From assembly GCF_019599265.1 (NCBI RefSeq), contig NZ_JAHZTC010000002.1, positions 124,001 through 188,000 on the forward strand: a stretch of DNA of 64,000 bases, read 5' to 3'. The translations under genes and the position numbers were made by a program. Positions 1-64,000 of the stretch are shown in pieces (the first letter of the stretch is position 1; the number at the start of each line of letters is the position of its first letter). The notes beneath the pieces are model-generated. The model did no database searches. It had not been told where the DNA came from and was given only the letters and a program-made list of their open reading frames with translations. Source of the stretch: Pontibacter sp. HSC-14F20 (GTDB lineage Bacteria > Bacteroidota > Bacteroidia > Cytophagales > Hymenobacteraceae).

Positions 1-1919
1 GCAGCTTGTACAACTACATCGACTACGGCAAAGAGCGACTGGATTATTCGGGTCTGCGCGAAATGCCTTTCCGCAAAAAACTGCTCGACTACGCCCACCG
101 TTTCGTCAACGACCAGTACCTGACGTTCAATAACGAACTGGCCGAGCTGTTTGAGAAGAATGGCTTTGATATATTGAAAGTAGGTGACCTGACCGAAATT
201 GAGCAGAAGAAGGTTGACAGCTACTTCAAAAATACGATCTACCCGCTGCTCACGCCCATGGTGTTCGACAACTACCACGGTTTTCCGCTGCTCATGAACC
301 AACTGCTGACTTTTGGCGTGGTCACCCGGACCACCGAGGAGCAGAAGGCGCAGGACCGCGTGACTTTTGTGCAGATTCCGCAGAACCTGGCCCGTTTTTA
401 CGAGATCAACCGTAAGGACAAAATCGTTTTCGTACCAATCGAGGAAATCATTCGCTGGAAAATCAAAAAGCTGTTCCGTAACGTGGACATCGTATCAGCA
501 AACCTATTCCGCATTACCCGCAACGGGGACTTTACGCTGGAGGAGTCGGACGACATTGAAGCGGATTTTGTGCAGGAGATCAAATCGAAATTAAAGACAC
601 GCAAGAAGGGCCGTGTGGTGCGTTTGGAAATTGAGCGCAACCCATCTCAGTTTATGATGAAGGTGCTGAAGGAGCGCTGGGTCATCGATAATGCCAATGT
701 CTTCACGATCACAACTATGATCGATTTGCGGGGCCTGTGGCAGATTATCAATCACCGGCAGTTCAAGGACAAAGGCTTTAAGCAACCCGCACCGGTTATT
801 CCCCTTAGTTTGCCAGCCGAGTCGGTGGATATGTTTGAGTATCTGAAGGCGCATGACGTGCTGTTGCATCACCCTTACAACAACATGGACCCGGTGGTGC
901 AACTGCTGGAACGGGCCGCAGAAGACCCCTATGTGCTGGGCATCAAGCAGACGATTTACCGCCTGGCTGATCAGTCCCGGGTAACGGCCGCCCTCCTGAA
1001 AGCCGCCGAAAATGGCAAGCACGTATCGGTTTTATTTGAGGTGAAGGCCCGTTTTGACGAGGAGAAAAACCTGCGGGAAGGCGAGCGTCTGGAAAAAGCA
1101 GGCTGTTTTGTGATCTACGGCATCAGCAAGTATAAAACGCACACCAAAATGCTCATGATCATTCGTAAGGAAGGGGAGAAGGTAACGCGCTACGTGCACA
1201 TCGGCAGCGGCAACTATAATGAGCAGACGGCCCGCCTCTATACTGACATCAGTCTGCTAACCACTAATGAGGTGTATGCGCACGACGTGTCAGAGTTTTT
1301 CAATGTTATCACAGGTCACTCCAGACCGAATGAATACAAGTACCTGCTTACTTCACCCAAAGCGATGCGGTCGCAGCTTATCGAACTGATCCGGAATGAG
1401 GCGCGCAATGCCAAGAAAGGCCTGAAAAGCGGCATCGTGATCAAGATCAACTCGCTGGAAGACAAGGAAGTGATCGATGAGTTTTACAAAGCCTCGAAGG
1501 CGGGTGTGCCTATCAAACTGATCGTGCGCGGCATCTGCTGTCTGCGACCAGGGCGTGAAGAACTGAGTGAGAATATATCGGTGAAGTCGATTGTAGGAGA
1601 GTACCTGGAGCATAGCCGCATTTTTTACTTCCACAACAACGGAGACTCGAAAGTATACGGTGGCAGCGCCGACATCATGGTGCGCAGTTTTGACCGCCGG
1701 GTCGAGGCACTTTTTCTGATCGTAAACGAAGAGCTAAAGAAAGAGGCGATCAACATCCTGTACTACAACCTGCTCGACAACCAGAATTCCTACATCATGC
1801 GCGAAGAAGGCACCTACTCCCGAAAAAAACCAGCCGCTAGCGAAGACATCGTAGACGTGCATAAACTATTTTACAAGAAGGTTTTTGAGGATGCTGCGCA
1901 GGAAGTAGAGTTGGTATAA
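1..1919 (+). CDS. ppk1: Polyphosphate kinase 1 (5'-partial)
   Basis: Polymerises the gamma-phosphate of ATP into polyphosphate, reversibly. The frame is open to the left edge, so the N-terminus lies outside the window. About 638 codons are visible against roughly 690 for the family. The core is clear: a YRLADQSRV segment, then a VLFEVKARFDEEKN segment, then the two conserved histidines of the PLD-like catalytic domains. These are HTKM (His codon at about 1140, the expected phospho-histidine) and EHSRIFYF (about 1611). It ends in TAA and is followed immediately by a hairpin terminator. A Ppx/GppA phosphatase lies convergently 645 bases away, a common functional pairing. The family assignment is secure; nothing can be said about the start or promoter. 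Confidence 0.97.
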   Translation, partial: SLYNYIDYGKERLDYSGLREMPFRKKLLDYAHRFVNDQYLTFNNELAELFEKNGFDILKVGDLTEIEQKKVDSYFKNTIYPLLTPMVFDNYHGFPLLMNQLLTFGVVTRTTEEQKAQDRVTFVQIPQNLARFYEINRKDKIVFVPIEEIIRWKIKKLFRNVDIVSANLFRITRNGDFTLEESDDIEADFVQEIKSKLKTRKKGRVVRLEIERNPSQFMMKVLKERWVIDNANVFTITTMIDLRGLWQIINHRQFKDKGFKQPAPVIPLSLPAESVDMFEYLKAHDVLLHHPYNNMDPVVQLLERAAEDPYVLGIKQTIYRLADQSRVTAALLKAAENGKHVSVLFEVKARFDEEKNLREGERLEKAGCFVIYGISKYKTHTKMLMIIRKEGEKVTRYVHIGSGNYNEQTARLYTDISLLTTNEVYAHDVSEFFNVITGHSRPNEYKYLLTSPKAMRSQLIELIRNEARNAKKGLKSGIVIKINSLEDKEVIDEFYKASKAGVPIKLIVRGICCLRPGREELSENISVKSIVGEYLEHSRIFYFHNNGDSKVYGGSADIMVRSFDRRVEALFLIVNEELKKEAINILYYNLLDNQNSYIMREEGTYSRKKPAASEDIVDVHKLFYKKVFEDAAQEVELV

Positions 1920-1923
1920 TCTC

Positions 1924-1954
1924 AGCCCCCTTCTGATAACAGGAGGGGGCTTTT
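1924..1954 (+). terminator. Rho-independent terminator of ppk1
   Basis: An 11-bp stem (1924-1934 with 1941-1951, including one G-T pair) has a six-base loop and is followed by TTTT. It begins five bases after the ppk1 stop. Confidence 0.8.
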
Positions 1955-2029
1955 GGTTGAATCAGGATTTGAGGGTTAGAAAGGATTTTTCAGGATTGAG
2001 TTACCTTCCTAGCGCCTTCTTTTTGTAAA

Positions 2030-2548
2030 GGGGAATTTTACCTCATACCAGCCTTCCGCTCAGAACAGAGGAGGGAACCCATGCACGATTAACATTCCCC
2101 TGCCACCTTCAAAGGGGAATCTCTGTAGCTGCCAGTTGTTAGGTTTAGGCTTCGTAGCAAATACTACTGGCAGGTATAGCAAGACTAACTTGCCCCTAAA
2201 GCTATGAAACAGGTCGCTGTGCTAGAGGTGCACCTAAATGACACTCCACTGTTGGGGGTGAAGGGGTCCCCCTGTCAAGAGCGTTCAGCGAGTGGGGGTA
2301 GGGACCCTCGATTTGGAGGGTCTTGACTTTTTTGCCTACTGGGGCTAGGGGCCTCGATTTTTTCTTTATCGAGGGCCCCTACCCCCATCAAGGGAAAAAG
2401 TAGGTGCCCGCCGCACAGGCGAAGCAATGAAAGTAAACAAGTTAAGGTATAGATAAGCAGTTACTACGCCAGTTGTAAACTTGCGGTATACTTATACCTA
2501 GGCCGGAGGCCCTACTATAACAGACACGAGCCAGGACGCTCGCGCCAT
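2030..2548 (+). repeat. Mosaic intergenic repeat, copy 1
   Basis: This non-coding element fills the gap between convergent ppk1 and ppx. The conserved core is 2240-2431. It starts GACACTCCACTGTTGG and ends CACAGGCGAAGCAATGAAA, and recurs nearly identically at 29958-30151, 23977-24141 and 46910-47086. The left flank (about 2030-2239) includes TTCAAAGGGGAA and GCAGGTATAGCAAGACTAAC blocks shared with copies 3 and 4. A separate 48-bp block at 2501-2548 is inverted and matches 29831-29879. The core holds GTCAAGA/TCTTGAC (2274-2280/2321-2327) followed by T6. It also holds a 19-bp long-range inverted repeat (2294-2312/2368-2386, one mismatch). No ORF of note lies inside. Confidence 0.85.
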
Positions 2549-2564
2549 AGCGTATGGAACCCCA

Positions 2565-6902: not shown

Positions 6903-6929
6903 TTTTCAGGATTAAGGTGAGTATAAGTA

Positions 6930-6969: not shown

Positions 6970-8478
6970 CTATCTGCCATACAATTCTACTTCCTGCCTC
7001 AAACGCTGCGCTACCGTTTTGCTAAACAGACCCGGTTGAAGTCGCCACTGCCAGTTGCCCTTGGCCGTGGAGGGCTTGTTCATGATCGCCTCCTTGCCCA
7101 GCCCCAGCACATCCTGCACTGGCAGCACCACCAACTGCGCCACCGACATATAAGCCAGCCTCGCCATAATGGCACTCACATTTTCTTTTGACAGCCGCTG
7201 AGCGCTGTAGTCGCTCAGGCGCTTCTTATCGTCGCGGCTGGCGTCGTGCTCGTACCAGGCCCGCACGGTGCTGTTGTCGTGTGTGCCTGTGTACACAATG
7301 GAGTTCTGGCTGTGGTGGTGCGGGGCATAAATACTTTGCGGCAGGTCTTCGCCGAAGGCAAAAAGGAGCACCCGCATACCCGGCAAGTCAAATTGCGCCA
7401 TCAGGTCGCGCACGGGTTGATCAATTTCACCTAAATCTTCGGCAATGATGGGCATGGCCGGAAATTTCTTTTTGACCGCTTTGAGCAATTCGGCTCCCGG
7501 TGTTTTAACCCACTTGCCGTTGATGGCGGTTTTCTCTCCGGCAGGTACTTCCCAGTAGGCTGAAAAAGCACGGAAATGGTCGAGGCGCAGCAAGCCAAAC
7601 AGCTCCAGGTTATGGGCAATGCGCCGCAGCCACCAGTCGAAGTTCTGATTTTCGAGCTCCTTCCAATCAAAAACCGGGGTGCCCCAGAGTTGACCTGTTT
7701 CGCTGAAATAATCTGGTGGCACACCCGACACAGCAGTGGGCTGGCTCTGGCGGTCCAGTTTGAATAGTTGCGGATGCGACCATACGTCTGCGCTGTCGTG
7801 GCTCACATAAAAGGGCATGTCGCCGATAAAGGTGATCTCTTTAGACGTGCAGTACGTTTTGAGTGCCTCCCACTGACGGTAGAAAAGGAACTGTAGAAAA
7901 GCCTCGCGCTCTATTTCAACGGACAACTCTGCCGATAGCGCATCGATGGCATGGAGCTGGCGTGTTTTTACTTTTTCGGGCCATTCTACCCACGCCTTGC
8001 CGTTGTAGTATTGTTTGAAGGCCACAAAACTGGTAAAGTCGGGTAGCCATACCTTGTGCGCTTCCTGAAAGCGGATGAACTCCCCCTGCAACTTGCTGGC
8101 CCGACCGTCTTTATAGTTGTCGTATGCCTGTCGCAACAGCTTTACTTTATAGTCTGCCACTTTCGGGTAGTTTACCTTGGCCTTGTCGAAGCCACCCCCG
8201 GCCCGGATGTCTTTTTTGTCCAGTAGCCCATCATCTACCAAACGTTCGGGGCTGATCAGCAAAGGATTACCTGCGAAGGCCGAGTGACTACTGTAGGGCG
8301 AGTTGCCGGAGCCAATCTCGGTGGGGTTGAGCGGCAGGATCTGCCAGTAGCGCTGGCCCGCTTCCGCCAGCAGGTCGGCAAATTTGTAGGCCTCGGAGCC
8401 CAGGTCACCGATGCCATATGCTGATGGGAGCGAGGTGATGTGGAGTAAAATGCCGCTGCTTCGCTTGGGTATGATCAT
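6970..8478 (-). CDS. malQ: 4-alpha-glucanotransferase (amylomaltase, GH77)
   Basis: Transfers alpha-1,4-glucan segments between maltodextrins, 502 aa from the chosen start. Conserved GH77 features are SSGILLHITSLPS near the N-terminus, LLRLDHFRAF with the nucleophile Asp, IIAEDLGEI with the acid/base Glu, and YTGTHDNSTVRAWY. The ATG at 8478 is preferred over an upstream in-frame start at 8628, because the extra 50 residues are non-homologous in character. Also, ATG at 8478 overlaps the treY TGA as ATGA (4-base overlap), which is typical of translational coupling. In this locus it would recycle maltodextrins left by glucan breakdown. Confidence 0.95.
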   Translation of the reverse strand: MIIPKRSSGILLHITSLPSAYGIGDLGSEAYKFADLLAEAGQRYWQILPLNPTEIGSGNSPYSSHSAFAGNPLLISPERLVDDGLLDKKDIRAGGGFDKAKVNYPKVADYKVKLLRQAYDNYKDGRASKLQGEFIRFQEAHKVWLPDFTSFVAFKQYYNGKAWVEWPEKVKTRQLHAIDALSAELSVEIEREAFLQFLFYRQWEALKTYCTSKEITFIGDMPFYVSHDSADVWSHPQLFKLDRQSQPTAVSGVPPDYFSETGQLWGTPVFDWKELENQNFDWWLRRIAHNLELFGLLRLDHFRAFSAYWEVPAGEKTAINGKWVKTPGAELLKAVKKKFPAMPIIAEDLGEIDQPVRDLMAQFDLPGMRVLLFAFGEDLPQSIYAPHHHSQNSIVYTGTHDNSTVRAWYEHDASRDDKKRLSDYSAQRLSKENVSAIMARLAYMSVAQLVVLPVQDVLGLGKEAIMNKPSTAKGNWQWRLQPGLFSKTVAQRLRQEVELYGR

Positions 8479-11198
8479 AGCTTCGAAGGGTTTAATAGTG
8501 CGACTGGAAATGACTTGAAAATAGCAGCTAAAGGTATAGTTTGGATCGTTTGTAAGGCTGTTCCACCCAAAAGCTGTTGCCAGTTTTGAGGCGCTTCTGC
8601 CGGCAATTCTACCACGGTATCGCCCCATACCTGTTCACCGAGTGGCAGTCCGTTTTCAGACAGGATGCCCGTGAGCAGGCGAGGCACGACCACCAGACAC
8701 CAGTCATCTTTGTAGCGACGGGCAAAGGCTATGGCATGTTTGCTGTGCTTCCCTTTAAGTTGCAGTGGCATATACTCGCCCCGGTCGAAAAGTGTTTTTC
8801 GTGCAGTGCGCAGGTGTAGCACTTTATGGAGCAGGTATAGCTTCACGCGGCCATCTTCAGGCGATGCCAGCATTTCCTGCAATAACGTCTCTTCGTCATC
8901 AGCCGCTTTGATTTCCTCCAGAAAATCCTGCCGCAAGGTATAGTCTACCGGTCGGCGGTTGTCAGGATCCACCAGACTGAAGTCCCAGAGTTCGCAGCCC
9001 TGGTACACATCCGGTACGCCCGGACAGGTGGTCTTGAGGAGCGTCTGGCACAACGAATAAATCCAGCCAAAGTGCGCTGTCTTCCGGAAAAAAGGGTGGA
9101 ACGAAGCCATGAAGGCCTCGTCTTCCAGCAGCAGTTTTTTCACCAGGTCTTTCGTCGCCGTTTCATAAGCCTCATGCGGCTCCGACCAGTTGGTGTTTAC
9201 TTTGGCCTCCCGGAATGCTTTCACCAGGTACTCCTGAACCCGCTCCACCAGCGTGTCGTCCACCTTGCCGTCGATCGGCATAACGCCCAGCAGGGTTTGC
9301 AGGATAAAGTAGAGATCGTTTGGCGTAGGTCCGCCATCTTTAATGTGCAGACGTGCCAGTTGCATCCAGTCTGCCGCAATTTTCTCCCATTCTTCGGGCA
9401 CTTCGCTGAGTACCTGCAGGCGCATGCGCGAACCTTCGCCGCGTTTGGTGTCGTGCGTGGCAGTAGCGTTAATGGAATGCGGATAAGTTTGCATCCGGTA
9501 TGCCATGCGCTCATGAAAATCACGGCGGTCGAGATTGAACACGGCCGGGCTGTTGCCCACTTCGTTGAGCGCCAGCAGGCGATTATAATTGTAGAAGGTG
9601 GTGTCTTCGACACCTTTGGCGGCCAGCGGGCCTGTGAATTGCTGACTGCGCATCACAAAGTATAGCTTGTTGCGTTTTTGCTCTTCACTGTCCTGTTCAC
9701 CTGACTCGAAGAAAGTACGCAGGTGCTCCAGTTCGACCCTGGCTTCGGGCGCTTTTTCGTGGGCAATGGCAAAAGCTTTTTCTACTACCTCCAGGGCGGC
9801 CGGCGGCAGCGGAAGGGTATGGCCGTAAATGCGGTATACCGGAAAGGCAGCCAGCAGCGTGGCCAGGGCATGGTGCCAGTTATTGTTTTCTGAAGAAGCA
9901 GGTATAAGTTCGCAATCACGCAGCAAACGCAGCAGGTTTTGCAGCTCGCCCTGCATGTAGTTTTCGAGTATCAGCAGTTTCTTTTCATACACCAGTTTTT
10001 CGTAATCGAGGGGGGCATCAGGCACGAGCCGGCGGTATACCTGCGTCAGTTCCCGCTCGCCCTCGGCATAGGTATAGAGGTTGCTCACCCAAGCCAGAAA
10101 ATCGTAGCCGCTGTTGCCCTGTATCGGCCAGTGGTCGGGCATGTTTTCTTCGCCTTCCAGAATTTTCTCTACCACCAGGTATACCTGTTCGCCGGCCAGT
10201 TCGCGCAGCCGCTCCAGGTAGGTGTCGGGGTCAAAAAGGCCGTCGACGTGGTCAACCCGCAAGCCCTGCACGAGTTGCCGCATACAAAGCTCTTTGATGA
10301 ACTGGTGGTAATGATCAAATACCTCCTGCCGCTCCATGGCGGTGCAGATCAGGTCGTTGACGGTGAAGAAGCGGCGGTAGTTAATACGCTTTTCAGTTTC
10401 CTGCCAGTGCCTCAAGGTATAATACTGTTGCTCCAGCAATTCCTGCATCGCTGTCTGGTTGTCGTTTATACCTTTCAGCACGTCGGCTATACCTTGCTGC
10501 AATGCAGGGTGCTCCTGCGTTTTATGATAGAGCGCCTGTTTCGCCTGATTCCAGTCAATGGGCTCCAACGTGTCCTGCGCCATTAGCTGCTCCAGCTTTT
10601 GCACCTGCTCTGCAAGTATAGCGTTGCTTCCACCTGCGTGCAGTTTATCGCTCACTTGCTGCAACAGATAGGTATAGCTGTCGATGCTGACCGGATAAAT
10701 GTTGTCGAAATAATGCAGCCGGAAACCGTATTCATCGAAAGAGACTTTAAGTTGCCCTTGCCCGGTCACTTCCTCCAGCGGCTCACCCAGAAAAGGAACC
10801 ATCAGCTGGCCGTTAAAATCAGGATGATTGAAGTTGACATCGAAGAAGGTATAATAGCGCGACTTTTGTCCTTTCTCCAGCACATCCATCAGCCAGGCGT
10901 TGTTGGGGTGGAAGGCCATGTGGTTCGGCACGATGTCCTGCAGCCAGCCCATACCGTGGGCTTTCAGTTCTTCGGCTATTTCCTGCAGTTCATCCAGCGT
11001 CCCTACGTCCGGACTGAGTTGATGCGGATCCGTTACATCATAACCGTGCTCACTCCCCGGTCGGGCCGTAAAAAAAGGAGCTGCATAGATCGTGCTGATG
11101 CCCAGATCCCGCAGGTAGGGCAGTATGTTTTTCAGGTTCCGCAGTGTGAACTGAGGTGAGAGCTGAACCCGGTAGGTGGAGGAAGGTATGTATATCAT
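8475..11198 (-). CDS. treY: Malto-oligosyltrehalose synthase TreY
   Basis: Converts the reducing-end maltosyl unit of an alpha-1,4-glucan into an alpha,alpha-1,1 trehalose unit. It has 907 aa, in the long range for GH13 TreY. The N-terminus STYRVQL is characteristic. The catalytic motifs are QGLRVDHVDGL (nucleophile Asp), LVVEKIL (acid/base Glu) and ATATHDTKRGEGSR. Its partner TreZ is encoded upstream on the same strand, separated by the GH57 gene, and malQ overlaps its 3' end by 4 bases. The gene is unusually rich in AGGTATA/TATACCT heptamers; I count at least twelve inside it. Confidence 0.96.
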   Translation of the reverse strand: MIYIPSSTYRVQLSPQFTLRNLKNILPYLRDLGISTIYAAPFFTARPGSEHGYDVTDPHQLSPDVGTLDELQEIAEELKAHGMGWLQDIVPNHMAFHPNNAWLMDVLEKGQKSRYYTFFDVNFNHPDFNGQLMVPFLGEPLEEVTGQGQLKVSFDEYGFRLHYFDNIYPVSIDSYTYLLQQVSDKLHAGGSNAILAEQVQKLEQLMAQDTLEPIDWNQAKQALYHKTQEHPALQQGIADVLKGINDNQTAMQELLEQQYYTLRHWQETEKRINYRRFFTVNDLICTAMERQEVFDHYHQFIKELCMRQLVQGLRVDHVDGLFDPDTYLERLRELAGEQVYLVVEKILEGEENMPDHWPIQGNSGYDFLAWVSNLYTYAEGERELTQVYRRLVPDAPLDYEKLVYEKKLLILENYMQGELQNLLRLLRDCELIPASSENNNWHHALATLLAAFPVYRIYGHTLPLPPAALEVVEKAFAIAHEKAPEARVELEHLRTFFESGEQDSEEQKRNKLYFVMRSQQFTGPLAAKGVEDTTFYNYNRLLALNEVGNSPAVFNLDRRDFHERMAYRMQTYPHSINATATHDTKRGEGSRMRLQVLSEVPEEWEKIAADWMQLARLHIKDGGPTPNDLYFILQTLLGVMPIDGKVDDTLVERVQEYLVKAFREAKVNTNWSEPHEAYETATKDLVKKLLLEDEAFMASFHPFFRKTAHFGWIYSLCQTLLKTTCPGVPDVYQGCELWDFSLVDPDNRRPVDYTLRQDFLEEIKAADDEETLLQEMLASPEDGRVKLYLLHKVLHLRTARKTLFDRGEYMPLQLKGKHSKHAIAFARRYKDDWCLVVVPRLLTGILSENGLPLGEQVWGDTVVELPAEAPQNWQQLLGGTALQTIQTIPLAAIFKSFPVALLNPSKL

Positions 11199-11425
11199 GT
11201 TGTTTCAGAGATTGTTGGTCATCATTTAGCTGGTGTGGTCACTTTTATACGGCGGACTTTAGCTGCTGAAATTTGTGTTGGATGGCATTTTGAGGGAGCC
11301 ATTTACTAATTCAAGTGCGCCGGAGTAGAACATGACTGTACGTTATATGGTGGCTAAAACGGAGTAATTCCATTTGTAGGTTATTTTTCATCTATATCCG
11401 AATTGATACCTAGAAAGTTGGCTAT

Positions 11426-13849
11426 TTATAGCTTCAGGTTGAGGCTCTCATAGAGGTCTTTGAACTGCCTGCACCAGGTCTCGGCTTTCCCGTTTTTTTC
11501 ATCCTGATTTTTACTGTAGGTTTCGTAAGTGCTCTGCCGCATCCTGAAAGCGATGTTCTGCGACTGCCAGTACTCTGGTTGCAGCTTGGAGCCGTTGAGT
11601 ACGGTAAGCAATTCCGTCAGGTATCGCATGTGTGCCGTATCATCGGGGTTTTCCTCCAAGTGGTGCATGGCCTGCTCTACATGCGTAGTAGCCGCATAAT
11701 TTACGGCATCTTCGTCCAGTTTCACACCCATACGCTCCACCTCTTTCAGCAACTTGAGCATGGTGTCGACATCCGCTTGTACGGACAGCAGGGCTTCGAG
11801 CAAACGGCCTGTCACGATGTAGTCCACTGTAATCTGCAGCGGGCGGGGCAGGTTCATGTCCACACTTTTGATAGCAGCCATAAGTGGATAGTTGTTATCG
11901 TATACCTGCTGAAAATCGTGCTCGAGTGCCCGCATGGTTTGCTCCAGCACCTGGTCCAGAATTTTCTTCTGATCATCGCGGAAAAGGTGCCAGAATGAGT
12001 AGTTGTGCGACTCGAAATGTTTGTCTAATAGCATGATCACCTCCGTGATGTTGCCTTTTTCAAAAGCAGTGCTGAGCTCGTGGTGCAGGGTAGCGAAGGC
12101 ATCGGGACTCACGTATTTGCGCACGCCGCCAAACAACTGGTGGTCGCCGATATGCAGCACAGCAAAGGATACATCTACTTCCTCCCAGGTCACACTCGAA
12201 CGGATAAAGGCCTTACCGATGGCCAGTCGCTGCCGTCCCGCTTCCAGCATTTCGTAATATTCGGAGGTGGCCTTGTAGCTGTAGAGCGGCAACTCATCTG
12301 GTGAGTCAGCAAATAGCGACGACACAGCATAGTGAGCACCTACCCGCAAGAGGTCCAGCATCGTGGGCTGGACAATTTTGTAATAGGCTTTGGAGGCGTT
12401 GCCGTAGTCTTTGTTGTTGCTCCTGGCCCGCTTCAGAAACTCCACAAAAGGTACTTCATAATCCTCCCCGCTCAGGTCCTTGGCCAGCTGCAGTGCACGG
12501 GTAGCATACAAAATGTCCTGCATGGTTTCTATACCTGTCACTTCATCAAAGAACCAGCCGCAACTGGTATACATCAGCAGGGCGTGGTATTGCATTTCAA
12601 GCAATTTCAGAAACTTGATCTGCTCTACTTTGCTCAGATTCCTGTTGGTTTGCGAATACATAAACTCACGCACACGCTCTTCGTCCCGGTCCATGATCAC
12701 CTGAATGTAGTTGTTGCGGGTCTGCCACGGGTCAGCACCAAGTTTATGCATCTCCTGTTCGTAGAGCGGCTCCAACTGATCGCGCACCCAGTCAAAGGCC
12801 TCCCGCACCGGTGCGCGCCAGGCCTGGTTCCAGTCATCGTGACCGCCGGTGTGGCAACCGCAGTCGCTGCGCCAGCGCTCCACGCCGTGCATGCAACTCC
12901 AGGAAGTGTTCTCAATGATTTCGGCCTCGTATTTGGGCGGGTATAGCTCCAGGTATTCTCCGTAAATGGTGATCTTGGCCAGCTGTTCCTGTTCGATGTG
13001 ATGCAGGGCATAAGAGAGGGCCATTTCGCCGAAGCGGTGGTGGTGACCGTAGGTTTCGCCGTCCGTAGCAATGTGCATGAGCTGCGGGTCGTTGCTGTTC
13101 TCGTCGAAGGTGGTGGTGAGCCGGTGAGCAAATTTTTCGCCGCTCTCTAGCAAACCTTCAAAAGCGATGGCCTGCGATACCGGAGCATCATAAAAAAACA
13201 GCGCAATGGTGCGACCTGAAGGTAGGGTACAGCGATAGGGCCTGCGCGGATCAATTTTAGCACCTTCCGCATTGTGCCACTCCTTTTGGTCTATCTTGCG
13301 GTAGCGCCTGGCCTGGTAAGGGGAGAGAATAGTAAACTTAACGCCATGTTCGGCCAGCACTTCCAGCGTAGCGGTGTTGGCAGCCGTTTCGCCCAGCCAC
13401 ATGCCTTCCGGGTCGCGGCCGAAGCGCTTCCGGAAATCATAAATGCCCCAGATCACCTGTGTGTGCTGGTCGCGCTCGTTGGCCAGCGGCATGATCATGT
13501 GGTTGTATACCTGCCCTAGTGCAGCCCCGTGCCCCGAAAAGCGTTTCTGACTCTCTTTGTCTGCATCGAGTATGGACTGATAAATATCCGGCGCTTTTTT
13601 CTCCATCCACTCCAGCAAGGTCGGACCGAAGTTGAAGCTCATGCGGGCGTAGTTGTTCATGATGTCCACAATCTGGCCTTTGCCATTCTGGATGCGGGAG
13701 GCGGTATTGCGGGCGTAGCATTCGGCGGTGATGCGCTCGTTCCAGTCGTGGTAAGGGTGCGCCGACTCCTGCAACTCTACCTCATTGAGCCAGGGATTCT
13801 CGCGGGGAGGCTGGTAAAAGTGTCCGTGAATGCAGATGTACTTGTTCAT
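11426..13849 (-). CDS. Glycoside hydrolase family 57 protein with DUF3536
   Basis: An 807-aa protein with an N-terminal GH57 (beta/alpha)7-barrel and a DUF3536 C-terminal half. The GH57 motifs are HGHFYQPP (residues 8-15), GMWLGETA (probable nucleophile Glu154) and ATDGETYGHHH (probable catalytic Asp263). GH57 enzymes include 4-alpha-glucanotransferases, amylopullulanases and branching enzymes, so an alpha-glucan-acting role is expected. The exact reaction of the DUF3536 subgroup is not known to me. It sits between treZ (108-base gap) and treY (227-base gap) on the same strand, which supports a role in glycogen/trehalose metabolism. Confidence 0.88.
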   Translation of the reverse strand: MNKYICIHGHFYQPPRENPWLNEVELQESAHPYHDWNERITAECYARNTASRIQNGKGQIVDIMNNYARMSFNFGPTLLEWMEKKAPDIYQSILDADKESQKRFSGHGAALGQVYNHMIMPLANERDQHTQVIWGIYDFRKRFGRDPEGMWLGETAANTATLEVLAEHGVKFTILSPYQARRYRKIDQKEWHNAEGAKIDPRRPYRCTLPSGRTIALFFYDAPVSQAIAFEGLLESGEKFAHRLTTTFDENSNDPQLMHIATDGETYGHHHRFGEMALSYALHHIEQEQLAKITIYGEYLELYPPKYEAEIIENTSWSCMHGVERWRSDCGCHTGGHDDWNQAWRAPVREAFDWVRDQLEPLYEQEMHKLGADPWQTRNNYIQVIMDRDEERVREFMYSQTNRNLSKVEQIKFLKLLEMQYHALLMYTSCGWFFDEVTGIETMQDILYATRALQLAKDLSGEDYEVPFVEFLKRARSNNKDYGNASKAYYKIVQPTMLDLLRVGAHYAVSSLFADSPDELPLYSYKATSEYYEMLEAGRQRLAIGKAFIRSSVTWEEVDVSFAVLHIGDHQLFGGVRKYVSPDAFATLHHELSTAFEKGNITEVIMLLDKHFESHNYSFWHLFRDDQKKILDQVLEQTMRALEHDFQQVYDNNYPLMAAIKSVDMNLPRPLQITVDYIVTGRLLEALLSVQADVDTMLKLLKEVERMGVKLDEDAVNYAATTHVEQAMHHLEENPDDTAHMRYLTELLTVLNGSKLQPEYWQSQNIAFRMRQSTYETYSKNQDEKNGKAETWCRQFKDLYESLNLKL

Positions 13850-13895
13850 ACGTTAGGGGGCAAATGCGTTATTGACAAAGGACACTAGAAGGACT

Positions 13896-13943
13896 GGTAT
13901 AGCTGATAAGCCGGGCAGGCCCGCTGTTGGTAAAGGCTATACC
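13896..13943. repeat. Nested inverted repeat built from GGTATAGC/GCTATACC
   Basis: In the treZ-GH57 gap, GGTATAGC (13896-13903) is inverted as GCTATACC (13936-13943), around a G+C-rich inner dyad. It is one of several hairpins in the window whose arms are the abundant TATACCT motif. Confidence 0.45.
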
Positions 13944-13957
13944 TGCTGCTGTCTTTT

Positions 13958-15802
13958 TCATAGAATAATATTGCTTTGGAATACGGTAACAGAAGCGGCT
14001 GGCAACTCTATTTCCTGACCGGCATGGAGTTCCTGCGGCAAGTCCATACTTGCGCCACCATACTTGCTTTCAGCCGAACTCAGCACCTGCTTCCAGGCCG
14101 CACCTACTTCCTTGACCATACTTGTTTTTTGTGGTTGATTATTTATGTTAAATAAGGTATAAAGATAAGGACTCTCGCCTGAGTGAATCAGGTGCAACAC
14201 CTGAGTATGGCTGTCGGCTGAAACATGCAGGTGGGTTTTGTCCGGGTGGGACAGCGCAGGTGCTGACTTACGCAACTTGATCAGCGCTTTGTAGAAATCG
14301 CGCAACTGGCGGTGCTTCTCGCTGTGTTTGTAGGTGCGCTGCAGTTTCGACTGGTTGAACGTCTCTTCCGACTGCGGGTCCGGCGCTTCTCCCTGCCAGG
14401 CAAAAGCCGAAAACTCTTCTCTGCGTCCATTGCGCACGGCCTCAACCAGGTCTTTGTCGGAGTGGCTCACAAAGTACAGGAATGGATTTTCCTCGCCATA
14501 CTCTTCGCCCATGAAGAGCATGGGGGTGAAAGGGGAGAGGAGCACCAGTCCTGCCGCCACTTTGAGCATGTCATAGGAAACCAGTTTGGTCAGTCGCTCG
14601 CCGAGCATGCGGTTGCCCACCTGGTCGTGGTTCTGGGAGCAGACTACAAATTGCCGGGCGGGGTTAGTCGTAGCATCGCTGCCAAAGGTGCGTTTGCGGT
14701 GCTCAGAATATATACCGTCATACACAAAGCCATGCAGCAATGCTTTCTGCAGTTGCTCCAGCTTGCCAAAATCGCTGTAGTAACCGGAGTCCTCGCCGGT
14801 GAGCAGCGCGTGTACGGCATGATGAAAATCATCGCTCCATTGGGCTGCCAGTCCGTAACCGCCTTTTTCTATGGGGTTGATGATGCGGACATCATTCAGG
14901 TCACTTTCGGCAATCAGGATGAAAGGACGGCCCAACTGCTGTTCCAGATGCTCCACCTGCTCCTGTAGCTCCTGCAAAAAGTGCTTGGCGCCCGTGTCGA
15001 GGATGGCGTGCACGGCATCAAGGCGCAGGGCATCGATGTGGTAATCCCGCAGCCACAGCAGGGCATTCTGGATGAAGAAGTTGCGCACATGGTCGCTGTG
15101 GGCATCGTCAAAATTAAGCGCCTTGCCCCAGGGCGTGTTATACTTGTTGGTGAAGTATGGGCCGAACTCGTTGAGGTAGTTGCCTTCCGGACCCAAGTGG
15201 TTGTAAACCACATCCAGCACCACGGCTATACCTGCAGCATGGCACGCGTCAACCAGTTTTTTCAAACCATCCGGACCACCGTAGCTTTCCTGCACCGCCG
15301 AAGGGTATACGCCATCATAACCCCAGTTACGACTCCCCGGAAATTGCGCCACCGGCATCAGCTCAATGGCTGTTATACCTAAATCAATCAACTCAGGAAG
15401 CTTTTCGATAACATCCTGAAAAGTGCCTTCTTCAGAAAAAGTACCTACGTGCAGTTCATAAATAATATACTGCTCCAGCGGCAGCGGTTTCCAGTGTCTG
15501 TCAGTCCATTGAAAAGCGGTATGATCGACTACGACCGAAGGCCCATGCACCCCATCGGGCTGAAAATGGGAGGCAGGATCGGGTCGCTCCATTTCCTCGT
15601 CAAGTTGCAAGGTATAGCGTGCGCCGGGGCCCGTCTCTTCGCTCAGCCCAGTCCAGTAGCCGAAAGCTTCCCGCTGCAGCGGTATTAACTTATCGTTATC
15701 TTTTAACAACACATCCACTTGTCCGGCGGTCGGTGCCCACACCGTGAACAGCGTGCCTCGTCCGGGGGTATAATGTGCTCCTAAGTCTCGTGTTATGCTC
15801 AT
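13958..15802 (-). CDS. treZ: Malto-oligosyltrehalose trehalohydrolase TreZ
   Basis: Hydrolyses the glycosidic bond next to the terminal trehalosyl unit made by TreY, releasing free trehalose. It has 614 aa. An N-terminal CBM48-like domain is followed by the GH13 barrel. Motifs are VVLDVVYNHLGPEGNYL, DALRLDAVHAI (nucleophile Asp), LIAESDLND (acid/base Glu) and QNHDQVGNR. It is the first gene of the minus-strand trehalose cluster and is divergent from glgE across a 209-base intergenic region. A TAACTTTG -7 candidate lies 85-92 bases upstream of the start. Confidence 0.96.
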   Translation of the reverse strand: MSITRDLGAHYTPGRGTLFTVWAPTAGQVDVLLKDNDKLIPLQREAFGYWTGLSEETGPGARYTLQLDEEMERPDPASHFQPDGVHGPSVVVDHTAFQWTDRHWKPLPLEQYIIYELHVGTFSEEGTFQDVIEKLPELIDLGITAIELMPVAQFPGSRNWGYDGVYPSAVQESYGGPDGLKKLVDACHAAGIAVVLDVVYNHLGPEGNYLNEFGPYFTNKYNTPWGKALNFDDAHSDHVRNFFIQNALLWLRDYHIDALRLDAVHAILDTGAKHFLQELQEQVEHLEQQLGRPFILIAESDLNDVRIINPIEKGGYGLAAQWSDDFHHAVHALLTGEDSGYYSDFGKLEQLQKALLHGFVYDGIYSEHRKRTFGSDATTNPARQFVVCSQNHDQVGNRMLGERLTKLVSYDMLKVAAGLVLLSPFTPMLFMGEEYGEENPFLYFVSHSDKDLVEAVRNGRREEFSAFAWQGEAPDPQSEETFNQSKLQRTYKHSEKHRQLRDFYKALIKLRKSAPALSHPDKTHLHVSADSHTQVLHLIHSGESPYLYTLFNINNQPQKTSMVKEVGAAWKQVLSSAESKYGGASMDLPQELHAGQEIELPAASVTVFQSNIIL

Positions 15803-15886
15803 AAAGTAACCTTTTATGCCTGATTTCTAACTGGCATATACGGCATTAGGTTGTTCTTTTTTGGCCAATTCCATCTTTTCTGGTTC

Positions 15887-15894
15887 CAAAGTTA
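15887..15894 (-). promoter_or_regulatory. Candidate -7 element (TAACTTTG) for treZ
   Basis: The minus-strand sequence TAACTTTG matches the Bacteroidetes -7 consensus TAnnTTTG in the treZ/glgE divergent region. A TTG at the -33 position is not evident. Confidence 0.45.
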
Positions 15895-16011
15895 TCCTAT
15901 AGCTCACTTAACATAAGTTGTAGGTATAACGACAGATTCTGCACCGAAACCTATTGCGCGCGCATACAGTACCTATTAGCTATTCTTCATCAAATCAGTA
16001 AAAAAGCATAC

Positions 16012-18033: not shown

Positions 18034-18047
18034 AACGAAAAAACTAT

Positions 18048-21372
<3,325 letters not shown>

Positions 21373-21380
<8 letters not shown>

Positions 21381-23718: not shown

Positions 23719-23761
23719 TCCGTTTGGAGTATATTCTTTGATGGGGAATCTCCTCGATAAG

Positions 23762-23798
23762 AGAGCGTCTGTTCAGGTATGGATAGGCGCTCTTTTTT
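23762..23798 (+). terminator. Terminator after the glgE-treS-glgB operon
   Basis: AGAGCG (23762-23767) pairs with CGCTCT (23788-23793), followed by a run of T to 23798. It lies 44 bases after the glgB stop. Confidence 0.7.
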
Positions 23799-23827
23799 GT
23801 TATTGCTTGGATGGCGGATATAGCTAC

Positions 23828-24215
23828 ATGGCGGGAGGGTCCACGCTCATGGGGCTTCTCGCCCAGGTATGGGAGGGTATAGTTACTTTGCTTTTTAGCA
23901 ACTGCAATTACAGGTATAGCGACCTGTGTTGCTCTGTAGCAACAGCTTTATCTTTAGCAACTAGTTTTGTTTTATAGCTTCGCCTGTGCGGCTGGCACTC
24001 ACTTTTTTTCTGGATGAAAAAATAGAGGGCCCCTAGCCCGAGTAAGCAAAAAAGTCAAGACTCTCCAAATCGAGGGCCCCTACCCCCACTCGCTGAACGC
24101 TCTTGACAGGGGGACCCCTTCACCCCCAACAGTGGAGTGTCATTTAGGTGCGCCTGGTTGAGCTATACCTTCGTAGCCAGCGTGCAAGGATGTCTTGCTA
24201 TACCTGCAATTGACT
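23828..24215 (-). repeat. Mosaic intergenic repeat, copy 2 (shortened)
   Basis: Inverse-orientation copy of the element described at 2030-2548, filling the gap between convergent glgB and the DUF2179 gene. The core is 23977-24141 and lacks part of the inner long stem found in copies 1 and 3. A degenerate small block (23828-23864) corresponds to 29831-29879. No coding potential is seen. Confidence 0.8.
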
Positions 24216-24336
24216 CGTGACAAAACTGAAACAATAACGCTTATACCTGAGAAATAACCGTTACAGGCTCCCCGCTTTGGACAAGGAGAGGTAGGGGTGG
24301 TTGGACCCGGTATACCAAAGAAACTACATCGACTAC

Positions 24337-24369
24337 GAGTCTATACCTGACATCCGCAGGTATAGACTC
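24337..24369. terminator. Perfect 13-bp hairpin made of the TATACCTG motif, 3' of the DUF2179 gene
   Basis: GAGTCTATACCTG (24337-24349) is perfectly inverted at 24357-24369 with a 7-base loop. It abuts the stop codon of the minus-strand DUF2179 gene. No T-run follows, so a role in 3'-end formation is inferred from position only. Confidence 0.45.
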
Positions 24370-29830: not shown

Positions 29831-30375
29831 ATGGCGCGAGCATTCTCGCTCTTGTCTGCTATAGTGGGGCCTCTGGCCCTTTTATCAGGTATAGCTAGCT
29901 GAATGGCTATACCTATACCTGGCTTAGACACCCTTTGGCTATATCTTACCTGAGCTGTTTCATTGCTTCGCCTGTGCGGCGGGCACCTACTTTTTTCCTT
30001 GATGGGGGTAGGAGCCCTCGATAAAGAAAAAAATCGAGGCCCCTAGCCCCAGTAGGCAAAAAAGTCAAGACCCTCCAAATCAAGGCCCCCTACCCCCACT
30101 CGCTGAACGCTCTTGACAGGGGGACCCCTTCACCCCCAACAGTGGAGTGTCAAAAGGTGCACCTGGCTGAGCTATACCTTCGTAGCTAGCGTGCAGGTTA
30201 GTCTTGTTATACCTGCCAGGGGTATGTGCCACGAAGCCTATACCTAACAACTGGCAGTAATAGAGATTCCCCTCTCGGAAGGGGCAGGCTAGCCGTGCAC
30301 ACGAAACCTTAGCTACAGAGCTTACTTAAAGAACTAACAGTACCAACAATTCCCCCTTCGAAGGGAGCAGGGGAT
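29831..30375 (-). repeat. Mosaic intergenic repeat, copy 3
   Basis: The core at 29958-30151 is almost identical to that of copy 1 (2240-2431) in inverse orientation. The inverted 49-bp satellite block (29831-29879) and the left-flank blocks up to about 30375 are also present. It lies between the 5' end of xseA and the 3' end of the XRE regulator gene. An AGGTATAGC ... GCTATACCT dyad sits at about 29888-29914. There is no coding potential. Confidence 0.85.
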
Positions 30376-36772: not shown

Positions 36773-36788
36773 AGGTATAGCTATACCT
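36773..36788. terminator. Perfect 16-bp palindrome AGGTATAGCTATACCT at the aldehyde dehydrogenase 3' end
   Basis: Two abutting, inverted copies of the abundant AGGTATA motif form a perfect palindrome whose last base is the final base of the aldehyde dehydrogenase stop codon. A role in 3'-end formation is inferred from position only; there is no T-run. Confidence 0.35.
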
Positions 36789-58439: not shown

Positions 58440-61082
58440 TTAATAAGTGTCTTCTTCCAGTGAAGACTGGCGCCTATGCTCGATAATGCGAAAACTCTCC
58501 ACCATTTTTACTGACTCCGGAATGTCTTCCGAAAAAAGCGCGATGAAAGCTCCCTCCGGAGCATATTCCATAGCATGTGCCAGGGCGCGCGTTTCCTGGT
58601 TTATCTCCATGAGCTTCATGTCCGGCTTCACAGCCACAATGCCCTGCTTGATCAGGCTGTTGATCTCTTGTCCGGATTTGCCGCGCAGGTCCTTGTCCTG
58701 CCGGATGATAATCTCGTCGAAAGTCTCGGCGGCAATCCGCCCAATCTGCACGGTGTCTTCTGGGAGGCGGTCTCCTATACCTGCTATGATGCCAATTTTA
58801 TAACTGGCGTGCACATTGTCTATAAAATCGGCAATGGCCTCCATACTCGCGATGTTGTGGGCATAGTCGATGAGCACTTCGTAGCGGGGCAGTTTAAACA
58901 GGTTCATGCGGCCCGGCGTGGTTTCAGCAGAAGGTATAAAAGTGCGCAGCGCCGTCCTGATCTCGGCTATTTCGAAGTGGTTGATATACCCGGCCAACGT
59001 AGCAGCCAGCACATTCTGAATATTGAAACGTGCCCGGCCACCAAAGGTCAGCGGAATGTCCGCCACGCGGTCTACCCTGATCTTGTAGGTGTTTTTGAAG
59101 ATGGAAATATACCCGTTCTCGAGCACGGCCGCCAGTCCGCCTTTGCTGATGTGCTGCAAAATACGTGGGTTGTATTCGTCCAGACTAAAGAAAGCTACTT
59201 TGCAGGAAAGACCGGTAGCCATTTCAAATACCAGGTCATCGTCCGCGTTGAGTACCGCAAAACCGTTCTGACAAACCGTCCTTGGAATCACCGCCTTTAC
59301 TTCAGCCATTTCCTCTACCGTGTTGATGTCACCCAGCCCCAGGTGATCCGCTGAAACATTGGTCACAATACCGATGTCGCACTGCCGGAAGGCCAGGCCC
59401 GAGCGCAGCATACCGCCCCGGGCACACTCCAGCACCGCATAGTTCACCGTTGGGTCTTTGAGCACGAACTCACTGCTGTAGGCACCAGTGGTATCACCCT
59501 TAATGATTTTCTTGTCCTGTATGTAGATGCCGTCGGTGGTGGTATACCCTACCTGGTAGCCTTTGAACTTGAGCATGTGCGCTACGAGGCGGGTGGTAGT
59601 GGTTTTGCCGTTGGTACCCGTAATGGCCACTATAGGTATACGGGTCGGGTTGCCGTGCGGAAATAGCATGTTGATGATCGGTTCGGCTACGTTGCGCGGC
59701 AAACCGTCGGTAGGGGAGATGTGCATACGCAGCCCGGGAGCGGCATTCACTTCGATCACTGCTCCCCGGGTTTCTGTTAGTGGGATAGCAATGTCGGTTG
59801 TCATCACATCAATACCGCATACGTCCAGCCCGATAATGCCCGCGATGCGCTCTGCCATGAGCACATTGTAGGGATGCACGATGTCTGTTACATCCGTGGC
59901 AGTACCGCCGGTGCTGAGGTTGGCCGTGCTTTTCAGGTATAGCACTTCGCCATCTGGCAGCACCGATTGTAGTGTCAGGCCTTTTTCTTTGAGCAGACTG
60001 CGCGTATGCCTGTCTATTTTGATGTGCGTGAGCGCCTTTTCATGTCCTATACCTCGCCGGGGGTCCTTGTTGACTTCTTTAACCAGTTGCTGTATCGTGG
60101 AGATGCCATTGCCGGTGACCATGGCCGGTGTGCGTTTGGCGGCCGCAATGAATTTGCCATTGATGACGAGCAGGCGGTAATCGTCGCCTGTGATGAACTG
60201 CTCTGCCATCACTTTTTTAGAATAGCGTTGCGCTTCTGTCAGCGCCCGCTGCGCCTCTTTCCAGGTATGGATATTGACGGTAGCACCTTTTCCCTGGTTA
60301 CCGTCCAGCGGTTTTACGACCACCGGATAGCCCAGCTCATTTACCGCAGTTTCAAGTTCATCGGCGTCACTCACAATGCTGCCCTGAGGAACCGGTATGC
60401 CGGCATCTTCCAGAATGAGCTTGGTGGCGTTTTTGTTACCGGCATTCTCTACAGCGAAAAAAGAAGTGCGGCAGGTCATGGCCGCCTGTATGTGTTTCTG
60501 GTGTATGCCATACCCCAGTTGGATAAGACCGCTGCGGTGATTGTTGATATAAGGTATACCTCTGCTTACCGCTTCCGACACAATGGCCTCTGTGCTTGGA
60601 CCGAAGTACTCATCCTCGCGAATCTGGTGAAGCCTGGCGATGTCCTGCACTATGCTGGGTTTCTTGCCTTTGGCCATCAGCTCAGCTATGCGTACCGCGG
60701 CGTGGGCGGCATATTCTCCGGCCCGCTCCTGCTGGTAAGAGAACAGCACATAATCTACACCCGGTGCTGGCCCGGCATAGCGCCTGCCATAACCACTGTC
60801 CATACCGGCCAGCGTCTGAAGTTCGAGGGCAATGTGCTGCACTACCTTGCTAAAGGTAGTGCCTTCGCGAACGAGTCTGAAAAAGCCGCCGGGTGTTCCT
60901 TTTGACGAGCGATGCTCATACATACCCGGAAAAAGCTTCTCCAATCGCTCCTGGAAATTTGGCACTTCATTGGTTAGTACATCCTGTAACCCTTCCAGAT
61001 CGAGCTTCAGGACAATAATTTTAGGATGCTTGATAGACCAGTAGTTAGGTCCACGCATGATCCTCAGTTCTAGTATTTTCAT
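58440..61082 (-). CDS. cphA: Cyanophycin synthetase
   Basis: Non-ribosomal synthesis of multi-L-arginyl-poly-L-aspartate (cyanophycin) from Asp, Arg and ATP. It has 880 aa, the normal CphA1 length. It has an N-terminal domain (residues 1-160), an ATP-grasp domain (about 215-460, with VVVKPLDGNQGKGATVNI and VIEVNAAPGLRMH) and a C-terminal Mur-ligase-like domain. The P-loop of the latter is GTNGKTTTT (489-497), followed by NVSADHLGLGDI and YAHNIASMEAI. Both active domains appear intact. The isoaspartyl peptidase gene follows after 92 bases, and cyanophycinase is at 43904-44800. Confidence 0.96.
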   Translation of the reverse strand: MKILELRIMRGPNYWSIKHPKIIVLKLDLEGLQDVLTNEVPNFQERLEKLFPGMYEHRSSKGTPGGFFRLVREGTTFSKVVQHIALELQTLAGMDSGYGRRYAGPAPGVDYVLFSYQQERAGEYAAHAAVRIAELMAKGKKPSIVQDIARLHQIREDEYFGPSTEAIVSEAVSRGIPYINNHRSGLIQLGYGIHQKHIQAAMTCRTSFFAVENAGNKNATKLILEDAGIPVPQGSIVSDADELETAVNELGYPVVVKPLDGNQGKGATVNIHTWKEAQRALTEAQRYSKKVMAEQFITGDDYRLLVINGKFIAAAKRTPAMVTGNGISTIQQLVKEVNKDPRRGIGHEKALTHIKIDRHTRSLLKEKGLTLQSVLPDGEVLYLKSTANLSTGGTATDVTDIVHPYNVLMAERIAGIIGLDVCGIDVMTTDIAIPLTETRGAVIEVNAAPGLRMHISPTDGLPRNVAEPIINMLFPHGNPTRIPIVAITGTNGKTTTTRLVAHMLKFKGYQVGYTTTDGIYIQDKKIIKGDTTGAYSSEFVLKDPTVNYAVLECARGGMLRSGLAFRQCDIGIVTNVSADHLGLGDINTVEEMAEVKAVIPRTVCQNGFAVLNADDDLVFEMATGLSCKVAFFSLDEYNPRILQHISKGGLAAVLENGYISIFKNTYKIRVDRVADIPLTFGGRARFNIQNVLAATLAGYINHFEIAEIRTALRTFIPSAETTPGRMNLFKLPRYEVLIDYAHNIASMEAIADFIDNVHASYKIGIIAGIGDRLPEDTVQIGRIAAETFDEIIIRQDKDLRGKSGQEINSLIKQGIVAVKPDMKLMEINQETRALAHAMEYAPEGAFIALFSEDIPESVKMVESFRIIEHRRQSSLEEDTY

Positions 61083-62312: not shown

Positions 62313-62329
62313 CAAACTACGCTTATATT

Positions 62330-62893: not shown

Positions 62894-62979
62894 TTTACTA
62901 GTACATCTTGTCCTTTGTTTCTGGTTAGTTCCGTAGTAAATACGTATACATATCAGTAGTAAATACTGAATTTTTACTA
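62894..62979. promoter_or_regulatory. Cluster of four TAGTAAA sites
   Basis: TAGTAAA occurs at 62934-62940 and 62957-62963, both within the longer repeat GTAGTAAATAC (23 bases apart). It is inverted at 62894-62900 and 62973-62979. A fifth copy is at 63171-63177. The cluster lies in the 487-base region between divergent STAS and response regulator genes. Confidence 0.4.
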
Positions 62980-63164
62980 TTGCATCAAATTTAAGTTAAA
63001 TGTAGGTCAGGTGCGATTGTACATTCAGTTATTTATGATGAAAATTGTTGACAAGTGGGTGCGATAAGTTAAATCACCATTCCACCGGATGCACTACATG
63101 ATGACTACTTTACAACGTATCCGGTTTTTTCGCTCCCATCCTTAACCTTGGAATTGCCGGACAG

Positions 63165-63187
63165 AAAGGTTAGTAAAAATAACCTTT
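63165..63187. promoter_or_regulatory. Inverted repeat AAAGGTTA-N7-TAACCTTT before the response regulator
   Basis: A perfect 8-bp inverted repeat with a 7-base spacer ends 16 bases before the ATG of the response regulator gene. Its position suggests autoregulation or control of translation start. Confidence 0.45.
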
Positions 63188-63203
63188 GAACCAAACTTAA
63201 AAC

Positions 63204-63860
63204 ATGATAAACCTAATAATCACTGATGACCATAAAATAGTACGGGATGGCCTGAAAGCACTGCTGCAGGACCACAGTGCCGTGCGTGTGGTAGGTGAAG
63301 CTGCCAGTGGCAGCGAATTGCTTGATCTGTTGCCTCAGGTGGAGGCCGATATTGTACTGATGGACATCAGCATGCCAGGTATGGATGGCTTCGATACGGC
63401 TGCCCATATTCTCAAACGCTACCCTGAACTCAAAATAGTAGTCCTTTCGATGCTGAGCCACGAAAAATACGTGAACCGCATGATGGAACTCGGCGCATCG
63501 GGTTATATTCTGAAAAACGCAGGTAAGGACGAACTGCACTGTGCCCTGCAACTCATTGCACATGGATGTCGCTACATCAGCCCGGATGTAACACTGGAAC
63601 TGCTTCGCAAAATAAAACACTTGCCAGGCCACCTGCAATCCCCAAACGGAAACGGGGATGAGCACCGGGAGCTATCCAAGCGTGAGCTCGAAGTGCTGTC
63701 TTTGATCGGGGAGGGCTATACCAATGCCGAAATCGCTGAAAGGTTATTTACCAGCAAACGCACTGTCGAAACTCACCGACAAAACCTGCTCGACAAAACC
63801 AAGTCCCGGAATACGGCTGCGCTGATCAAGTTTGCCCTGCTGCGGGGCCTGATAGCATAA
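63204..63860 (+). CDS. NarL/FixJ-type response regulator
   Basis: A 218-aa transcription factor. The receiver domain (residues 1-120) has an acidic pocket ITDDH, the phospho-acceptor Asp54 in VLMDISMPGMDG, and Lys in YILKNAGKDE. The C-terminal LuxR-type HTH (about 152-215) has LSKRELEVLSLIGEGYTNAEIAERLF and KRTVETHRQNLLDK. No cognate histidine kinase is in the window. The short inverted repeat directly upstream suggests autoregulation. No terminator is visible in the remaining 140 bases. Confidence 0.93.
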   Translation: MINLIITDDHKIVRDGLKALLQDHSAVRVVGEAASGSELLDLLPQVEADIVLMDISMPGMDGFDTAAHILKRYPELKIVVLSMLSHEKYVNRMMELGASGYILKNAGKDELHCALQLIAHGCRYISPDVTLELLRKIKHLPGHLQSPNGNGDEHRELSKRELEVLSLIGEGYTNAEIAERLFTSKRTVETHRQNLLDKTKSRNTAALIKFALLRGLIA

Positions 63861-64000
63861 GCAGTCAACGTCACGACATCAGGCAGGCGCATTTATCAGA
63901 AGGCACTCAACTGTCAGGTAAATCTTTCGGTTCTTGTAATGCACGCGGGCTATGGTAATTTCGTATCTTGAAATGAAACCATAGCCCTATCGCGCACATG

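Follow-up and report, generated by a model that had tools for sequence, protein, structure and literature searches.

The window analysed here is a stretch of 64,000 nucleotides from Pontibacter sp. HSC-14F20 (contig NZ_JAHZTC010000002.1, positions 124,001 to 188,000), and it is filled from end to end with the seven-base word AGGTATA. Most genomes of the genus are rich in this word or in one of two relatives, AAGTATA and AACTATA, which we call the AGG, AAG and AAC dialects. We argue, with moderate confidence, that the word is a putative uptake-sequence-like watermark kept by natural transformation, in bacteria without recognisable type IV pilus ATPases. It is non-palindromic and strand-symmetric, it has dialects, some genomes mix two of them, sites are respelled in place, one island carries a foreign dialect and some genomes are free of the motif. 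We favour an uptake-type reading because this set of properties matches the uptake sequences of the Neisseriaceae. An earlier note, made from the sequence of the window alone, had listed an uptake signal among several possible roles, and that option fits best, chiefly owing to the clade-specific dialects.

One word in the window, three in the genus

AGGTATA or its complement TATACCT occurs 144 times in the window (75 copies on the + strand and 69 on the - strand), against 7.3 expected from base composition, and its density across the entire window is 4-14 copies per 4 kb. The longer CAGGTATAGC occurs 27 times (12 on +, 15 on -) against 0.12 expected. These two words top the window's rankings of over-represented 7-mers and 10-mers. 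The earlier note had described this excess as present on both strands and in coding and non-coding DNA alike, with at least twelve copies in treY. The counts agree: there are 4.27 copies per kb between open reading frames (ORFs) and 1.87 per kb within them, and treY has 13. Codon use and a purely local excess were the two explanations that the note named as fatal to its claim, and neither applies. The 48 mechanically called window ORFs of at least 100 amino acids hold 103 counted copies (101 by position, with overlaps taken once). After 200 synonymous-codon shuffles 9.0 ± 2.7 are left, with a maximum of 18, too few for the excess to come from codon and amino-acid use. Rather, the motif imposes itself on the codons, as the note had also proposed: the commonest sense frame is A-GGT-ATA (Gly-Ile), found in 31 of 44 sense copies, and 55 of the 219 ATA codons overlap a copy. 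Beyond the window, its own genome (a 4.64 Mb draft, with the window on contig C22) has 1,456 copies of CAGGTATAGC and 7 of the reversed word. The strand split is 759/697 with contigs oriented as deposited. The nearest named matches of the window's TreY are those of seven Pontibacter, at 80-83% identity.

Other Pontibacter write another word. Samples of about 20 kb showed AAGTATA or AACTATA instead of AGGTATA, and the first sign of this was P. vulgaris, with 64 AAGTATA in 22.7 kb against 3.3 expected. P. lucknowensis and P. ramchanderi came out as AGG-dialect. One round of sampling had no stretch from G170, G180 or G193, of which G180 and G193 were sampled in a later round; it also yielded nothing usable from G157 (a stretch of 1.3 kb in which neither G nor C was read) or from G164 (3.9 kb). 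The dialect classes come from genome-wide word counts in 50 genomes of the genus, to which thresholds were applied. By this measure 39 of the 50 are motif-rich: 12 in AGGTATA(G), 20 in AAGTATA(A), 4 in AACTATA(G), and 3 (G159, G161 and G191) in both AAG and AAC. The three dialects have A-N-S-TATA-R in common. The highest count is in G185, with 8,208 copies of AACTATAG and 160 of the reversed word. Among 204 genomes of the family, AGGTATAGC has 1,365-2,768 copies in the 12 AGG genomes and 57-297 in the remaining 38 Pontibacter. Five further genera, with 154 genomes, have 4-62, in some several-fold over the reversed word and low in number. In Adhaeribacter rhizoryzae (L053), from a related genus, a different pair, AATATTT/AAATATT, shows a milder excess (73 in 22.7 kb against 14 expected).

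A tree of ComEC shows that the dialects follow its branches. All 12 AGG genomes fall together in one group (support 94/99), and the AAC and mixed ones in another, of 7 (100/100), with mixed G191 branching first. The AAG genomes are scattered over the rest, and the motif-poor ones stand in four places. This is one gene with a midpoint root, some weak forks and the longest piece used for three broken genes. Because the AAG genomes are spread over the rest of this tree, AAG is probably the ancestral spelling. The AAC genomes retain extra AAGTATAA (921 against 179 in G175), which is how relics would look. Of the 11 motif-poor genomes, eight are without motif excess in samples of 20-60 kb, and the other three have weak signals: AAG in G163, GGTATA in G187 (L104, L205, L206) and TATATA in G182 (L099, L202-L204). 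The last two are possibly decaying or further dialects. Several of the eight have AAGTATAA at 2-3.7 times the reversed word genome-wide, and this surplus could be either relics or composition. The motif-poor genomes are also larger (median 5.8 Mb, n=11) than the motif-rich ones (median 4.6 Mb, n=39; Mann-Whitney p = 3.6e-6, with sizes rounded and kinship uncorrected). This is the expectation if foreign DNA accumulates where uptake is unspecific or absent, and it is a correlation only.

Individual sites are kept. Alignments were made for nine genes of the window, each with as many as nine relatives; that of m23 lacks a P. vulgaris row. The earlier note had asked for a comparison of single sites between species. 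AGGTATA is retained in 1,248 of 1,629 ordered comparisons between 8 AGG species (77%), against 26% for its anagrams and 34% for all 7-mers, and it ranks 8 of 2,409 words. Synonymous divergence of comEC within the AGG group is about 0.5-1.3, so the sites must be actively kept. Single-base departures at motif sites number 22, 12, 1, 4, 4, 15 and 17 at positions 1-7. Four or more AGG species share the motif at 27 sites (one counted twice, in the malQ/treY ORF overlap). At these P. vulgaris has AAGTATA in 7, AGGTATA in 4, AGGTATG in 1 and a word at least two changes away in 15. The 7 AAGTATA mean that some sites were respelled in place. One ppk position reads AAGTATA in the window and AGGTATA in the 7 other aligned AGG-dialect species.

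The sharp part of the motif is about ten bases long, c-AGGTATA-g-c, with nearly no information beyond it in the pooled flanks of chosen loci. None of AGGTATA, AAGTATA and AACTATA is a palindrome. Relative to a second-order model the three core words reach 10.6, 11.3 and 14.9 times their expected counts, and the one-off words 0.36-2.8 times, except AAGTATG at 4.9. A change of the seventh base from A to G is the sole one-off change that exceeds twofold in every dialect. The sets pooled for flanks, pairs and one-off words all come from chosen loci, which exclude low-density AAG samples (including L070, L071 and L086), mixed-dialect samples (L081, L083 and L108) and two stretches that show no motif excess, L110 and L115. 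These last are 20-kb stretches of motif-rich genomes (G194:C1:10001-30000 and G165:C2:1-20000), perhaps foreign islands or plasmid.

Copies on chromosomes, on mobile DNA and along the window

On the complete chromosome of G175, an AAC genome, twenty 20-kb stretches (400 kb) have 588 copies on the + strand and 573 on the - strand. Summed by chromosome half, these stretches have 297/278 and 291/295, so the motif is strand-symmetric in each. A search for fixed distances between pairs at the chosen loci found nothing clear apart from fused palindromes and a slight same-strand excess at short range. The fused forms are AACTATAGTT (118), AAGTATACTT (10) and AGGTATACCT (7), and they are most marked in the AAC dialect. 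Also in G175, an 8-kb island with an RND-type efflux operon (L128:5500-13600), mostly of 52-59% GC, has 17 AAG and 3 AAC copies. It looks like an import from an AAG genome.

Some plasmid-like contigs have fewer copies. On second contigs of two-contig assemblies AAGTATA occurs 9 times in 60 kb (G148), 19 in 54 kb (G166) and 47 in 100 kb (G147), against 19, 28 and 18 in single 20-kb samples of the respective chromosomes. Those of G148 and G166 carry conjugation genes. Few elements were sampled: two of these contigs are distinctly poor in the motif, and the third is lower by a factor of about two.

Within the window the copies take several arrangements (Table 1). Positions 6970-23718 hold a trehalose/glycogen-type gene cluster, named from reading the ORFs, in which treY is motif-dense.

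Table 1. Motif copies at selected features of the window
Feature	Positions	Strand	Motif content
ppk (637 aa)	6..1919	+	AGGTATA copies: 0
treY	8475..11198	-	13 copies of the motif; 7-8 of the 8 aligned AGG-dialect species retain several of them
Fused palindromic double copy AGGTATACCT	10177..10186		within treY; intact in 8 of 8 aligned AGG-dialect species
Gap between convergent called ORFs	23719..24369		6 motif copies
Cluster between ORFs	29887..29920		one + copy, then two - copies, in 34 bases
Convergent pair AGGTATAGCTATACCT (inverted repeat)	36773..36788		- copy abuts a called ORF end
Fused palindromic double copy AGGTATACCT	60552..60561		two fused motif copies

Transformation genes and the search for a reader

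Uptake requires a machinery, and the genus has candidates for one. ComEC is present in all 50 genomes and has a full frame in 47; the three broken genes are those of the window's own genome (G000), of G167 and of G185, the last with a frameshift. A protein of about 314 amino acids with three helix-hairpin-helix (HhH) stretches has an open frame of 310-346 amino acids in 48 of 50; these 48 frames were taken from the search table, and those of G166, G000 and G167 were read. It is related in sequence to ComEA chains of known structure, where its best match is endonuclease/exonuclease/phosphatase family domain-containing protein 1. For DprA, too, the frame is complete in 48 of 50. Exactly two genomes, G000 and G167, have broken copies of the HhH gene and of dprA, and both also have a broken comEC. 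In G000 the three carry stops and/or frameshifts at C76:158505-163305 (comEC), C9:37000-40000 (HhH) and C13:17100-18500 (dprA) (L195, L276, L278); the draft state of this assembly calls for caution, and G167 is a single contig. The three genes are distant from each other in the genome. Three unlinked genes broken in the same two genomes argue for one working system in the genus that was lost recently in both.

A model within the Bacteroidota is Riemerella anatipestifer, which is reported to lack pilus homologues and whose transformation depends on each of ComEC, DprA and a protein with three HhH domains (PMC8459023). That HhH protein has the same make-up as the Pontibacter one, and DUF1343, also required in Riemerella, is found in 50 of 50 Pontibacter genomes. 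The wording 'uptake sequence' is absent from the text of that paper. ComEC, DprA, HHH_3 and DUF1343, each in all 50 genomes, do not separate motif-rich from motif-poor.

A pilus motor was looked for and rejected. PF00437, the ATPase of type IV pili and type II secretion, gives weak matches only in all 50 genomes, covering about 38-66 of its 370 positions, with a best match of 25.9 bits and 3 just above the cut-off. A 'type II secretion system' resembling type IVa pili has been reported in some Bacteroidetes (PMC6668835), and the same search of the 50 genomes shows no sign of it in Pontibacter.

A second lead was the DUF5689 protein that Riemerella requires, which lies beside an outer-membrane protein; no DUF5689 protein of Pontibacter was recognised as its counterpart. 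The domain is present in 22 of 50 genomes, 12 times as a short form of about 410-450 amino acids and 10 times as a long one (frames of 1,099-1,299 amino acids). All 12 short forms adjoin, or sit one gene from, a protein of about 1,080 amino acids. In the two tested by Pfam (G175 and G149) this neighbour is a TonB-dependent receptor of SusC type, and DUF5689 as an uptake operon was rejected. SusD-like and phosphodiesterase neighbours in the AAC group are named by reading alone. The long form of G160 has lamin-tail, DUF5689 and Exo_endo_phos domains, which make it a secreted nuclease-like protein; the other nine are long by frame length.

Weighing the explanations

We propose the following route. 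Free DNA would be taken up and recombined into the chromosome via ComEC, the ComEA-like HhH protein and DprA, with no type IV pilus. A putative receptor would favour fragments that bear the motif, and motif alleles would then be re-imported more often than motif-free ones. Because of this, copies would accumulate and be kept on both strands wherever protein function allows. If the preference of the receptor drifts, old copies would be rewritten in place, and dialects would result. The probable changes are AAG -> AGG and AAG -> AAC, the latter via genomes that hold both. For the uptake signal sequences (USS) of Pasteurellaceae, accumulation has been explained by mutation plus uptake bias (PMC1939737), and by analogy the same model would apply here.

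DNA uptake sequences (DUS) are present on both strands of Neisseriaceae genomes. They are words of about 10 bases with 943 to 5,918 copies per genome and with dialects that share a core; one genome is reported to have two dialects near equal in number, and some relatives to have no DUS (PMC3630211). Mobile elements there can be recognised through their atypical DUS content (PMC7371117). DUS are proven to raise uptake and are read by the minor pilin ComP (PMC3868556, PMC12061091). The Pontibacter motif likewise is a frequent word of about ten bases with core-sharing dialects, two-dialect genomes and motif-free relatives. The differences are an unrelated word, a host in the Bacteroidota, no recognisable type IV pilus ATPase and a role in uptake that is predicted only. 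We therefore liken the motif to DUS and do not class it as one, since no pilus link was found and its function is a prediction. USS share with it a short, frequent word. Their flanking consensus is longer, whereas the Pontibacter motif has nearly none further than a base or two from its core.

Several observations weigh against an uptake watermark. Motif spacing in G175 is clustered rather than even (coefficient of variation 1.5). The second contig of G147, plasmid-like by its two-contig assembly alone, is just about twofold poorer than the chromosome sample. That of motif-poor G184 (126 kb) has 14 AGGTATA in 20 kb (L270, G184:C2:1-20000), as though derived from an AGG-dialect host. Low density on plasmids could also stem from short residence. 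ComEC, HhH and DprA frames are full in every one of the 11 motif-poor genomes, so the transformation genes alone do not predict the motif, and it must be assumed that specificity and not uptake was lost there. The search of 50 genomes produced no candidate for the receptor, the lead taken from Riemerella having failed. The own genome has all three genes broken and yet a normal motif density. Motif decay there after gene loss was considered and has no support: leave-one-out retention is 20 of 22, and the 7 relatives have 18-21 of 21-23. Its comEC pieces show no rise in dN/dS, so decay has probably not had time to set in since the loss. G167 does have the lowest density of its nine-genome group (0.46 per kb against 0.71-1.44), which is a single case, and G147 is as low (0.45 per kb) with intact genes.

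Our main rival explanation is methylation, in the manner of highly iterated palindrome 1 (HIP1) of cyanobacteria, and we consider it improbable though worth taking seriously. Here the motif would be the site of an orphan DNA methyltransferase, made and kept by methyl-directed repair (the Elhai 2015 model) or another methylation-linked process, and dialects would be changes of target. HIP1 and the alternate HIPs are likewise dispersed and frequent, and are replaced by other words in some genomes (PMC4390886). A type III-like N6/N4 DNA methyltransferase does lie about 11 kb before the window (G000:C22:112401-113384), and matches alike in score and length alone are found in 9 of the 12 AGG genomes, its own included. 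However, 19 of the 50 genomes are without a match to the N6_N4_Mtase family PF01555. Of these 13 are among the 39 motif-rich ones, including the AGG genomes G178 and G192. We reject this enzyme as the universal writer, with a single family searched; a methylase site was among the roles that the earlier note had suggested. The same note had compared the motif to HIP1. That likeness stands for the dispersed, genome-wide signature and fails for palindromy: the HIPs are GC-rich palindromes tied to methyltransferases, whereas the Pontibacter motif is no palindrome and is not tracked by the one family tested. A methylation site also sits poorly with the sparser motif on plasmid-like contigs.

One can also imagine that the word is under direct selection as the target of a protein that organises the nucleoid or chromosome, or of a Chi-type recombination enzyme, with dialects arising as protein and site co-evolve. 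The very strong retention, the short sharp core with its TATA step and the higher density between ORFs would suit this, and we still rate it a little below methylation. Chi and KOPS are short, frequent, recognised by recombination or segregation enzymes and oriented with replication. Such skew would be expected here too, whereas on the one chromosome tested there is none, and a recombination signal of this replication-oriented type, another of the roles first suggested, does not fit. There is no clear preferred spacing apart from the fused palindromes. Many copies inside genes, and absence in several places of the tree, would seem costly for a structural system. Least probable by far is a functionless, context-dependent bias of mutation or repair. 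In its favour, such a bias would act on either strand and make no difference between coding and non-coding DNA. Yet departures fall at all seven positions, and unevenly, so no single lesion type explains them. Plain mutational bias, also raised at the outset, fits poorly for other reasons as well: sites are retained despite heavily diverged comEC synonymous sites, one-off words mostly stand at 0.4-2.8 times expectation against 11-15 for the core words, and plasmid-like contigs are poorer in the motif.

We return to the uptake watermark. Full-text searches found no description of an uptake sequence or of this motif for Pontibacter, with subscription papers mostly outside their scope, and no such tag described for the phylum Bacteroidota. 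To our knowledge, self-specific DNA uptake is proven only in Neisseriaceae and Pasteurellaceae, both of which have type IV pili. We give an even chance to the broader proposal that Pontibacter has sequence-specific, pilus-free uptake, the first known in Bacteroidota, whose specificity changed at least twice within the genus, with bilingual genomes and with loss accompanied by larger genomes, so that the dialect of a segment would record its source clade. If true, this would be a third independent case of self-specific uptake, in a phylum that transforms without pili, and watermarks would then arise by a general drive. Three spellings, three two-word genomes, several losses and recent gene breakages in one genus make a natural experiment on genome-wide word change. 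How recognition words change across a whole genome is an open question for DUS and HIP1 too. Comparing the gene content of motif-rich and motif-poor genomes would be a direct route toward the outer-membrane DNA receptor.

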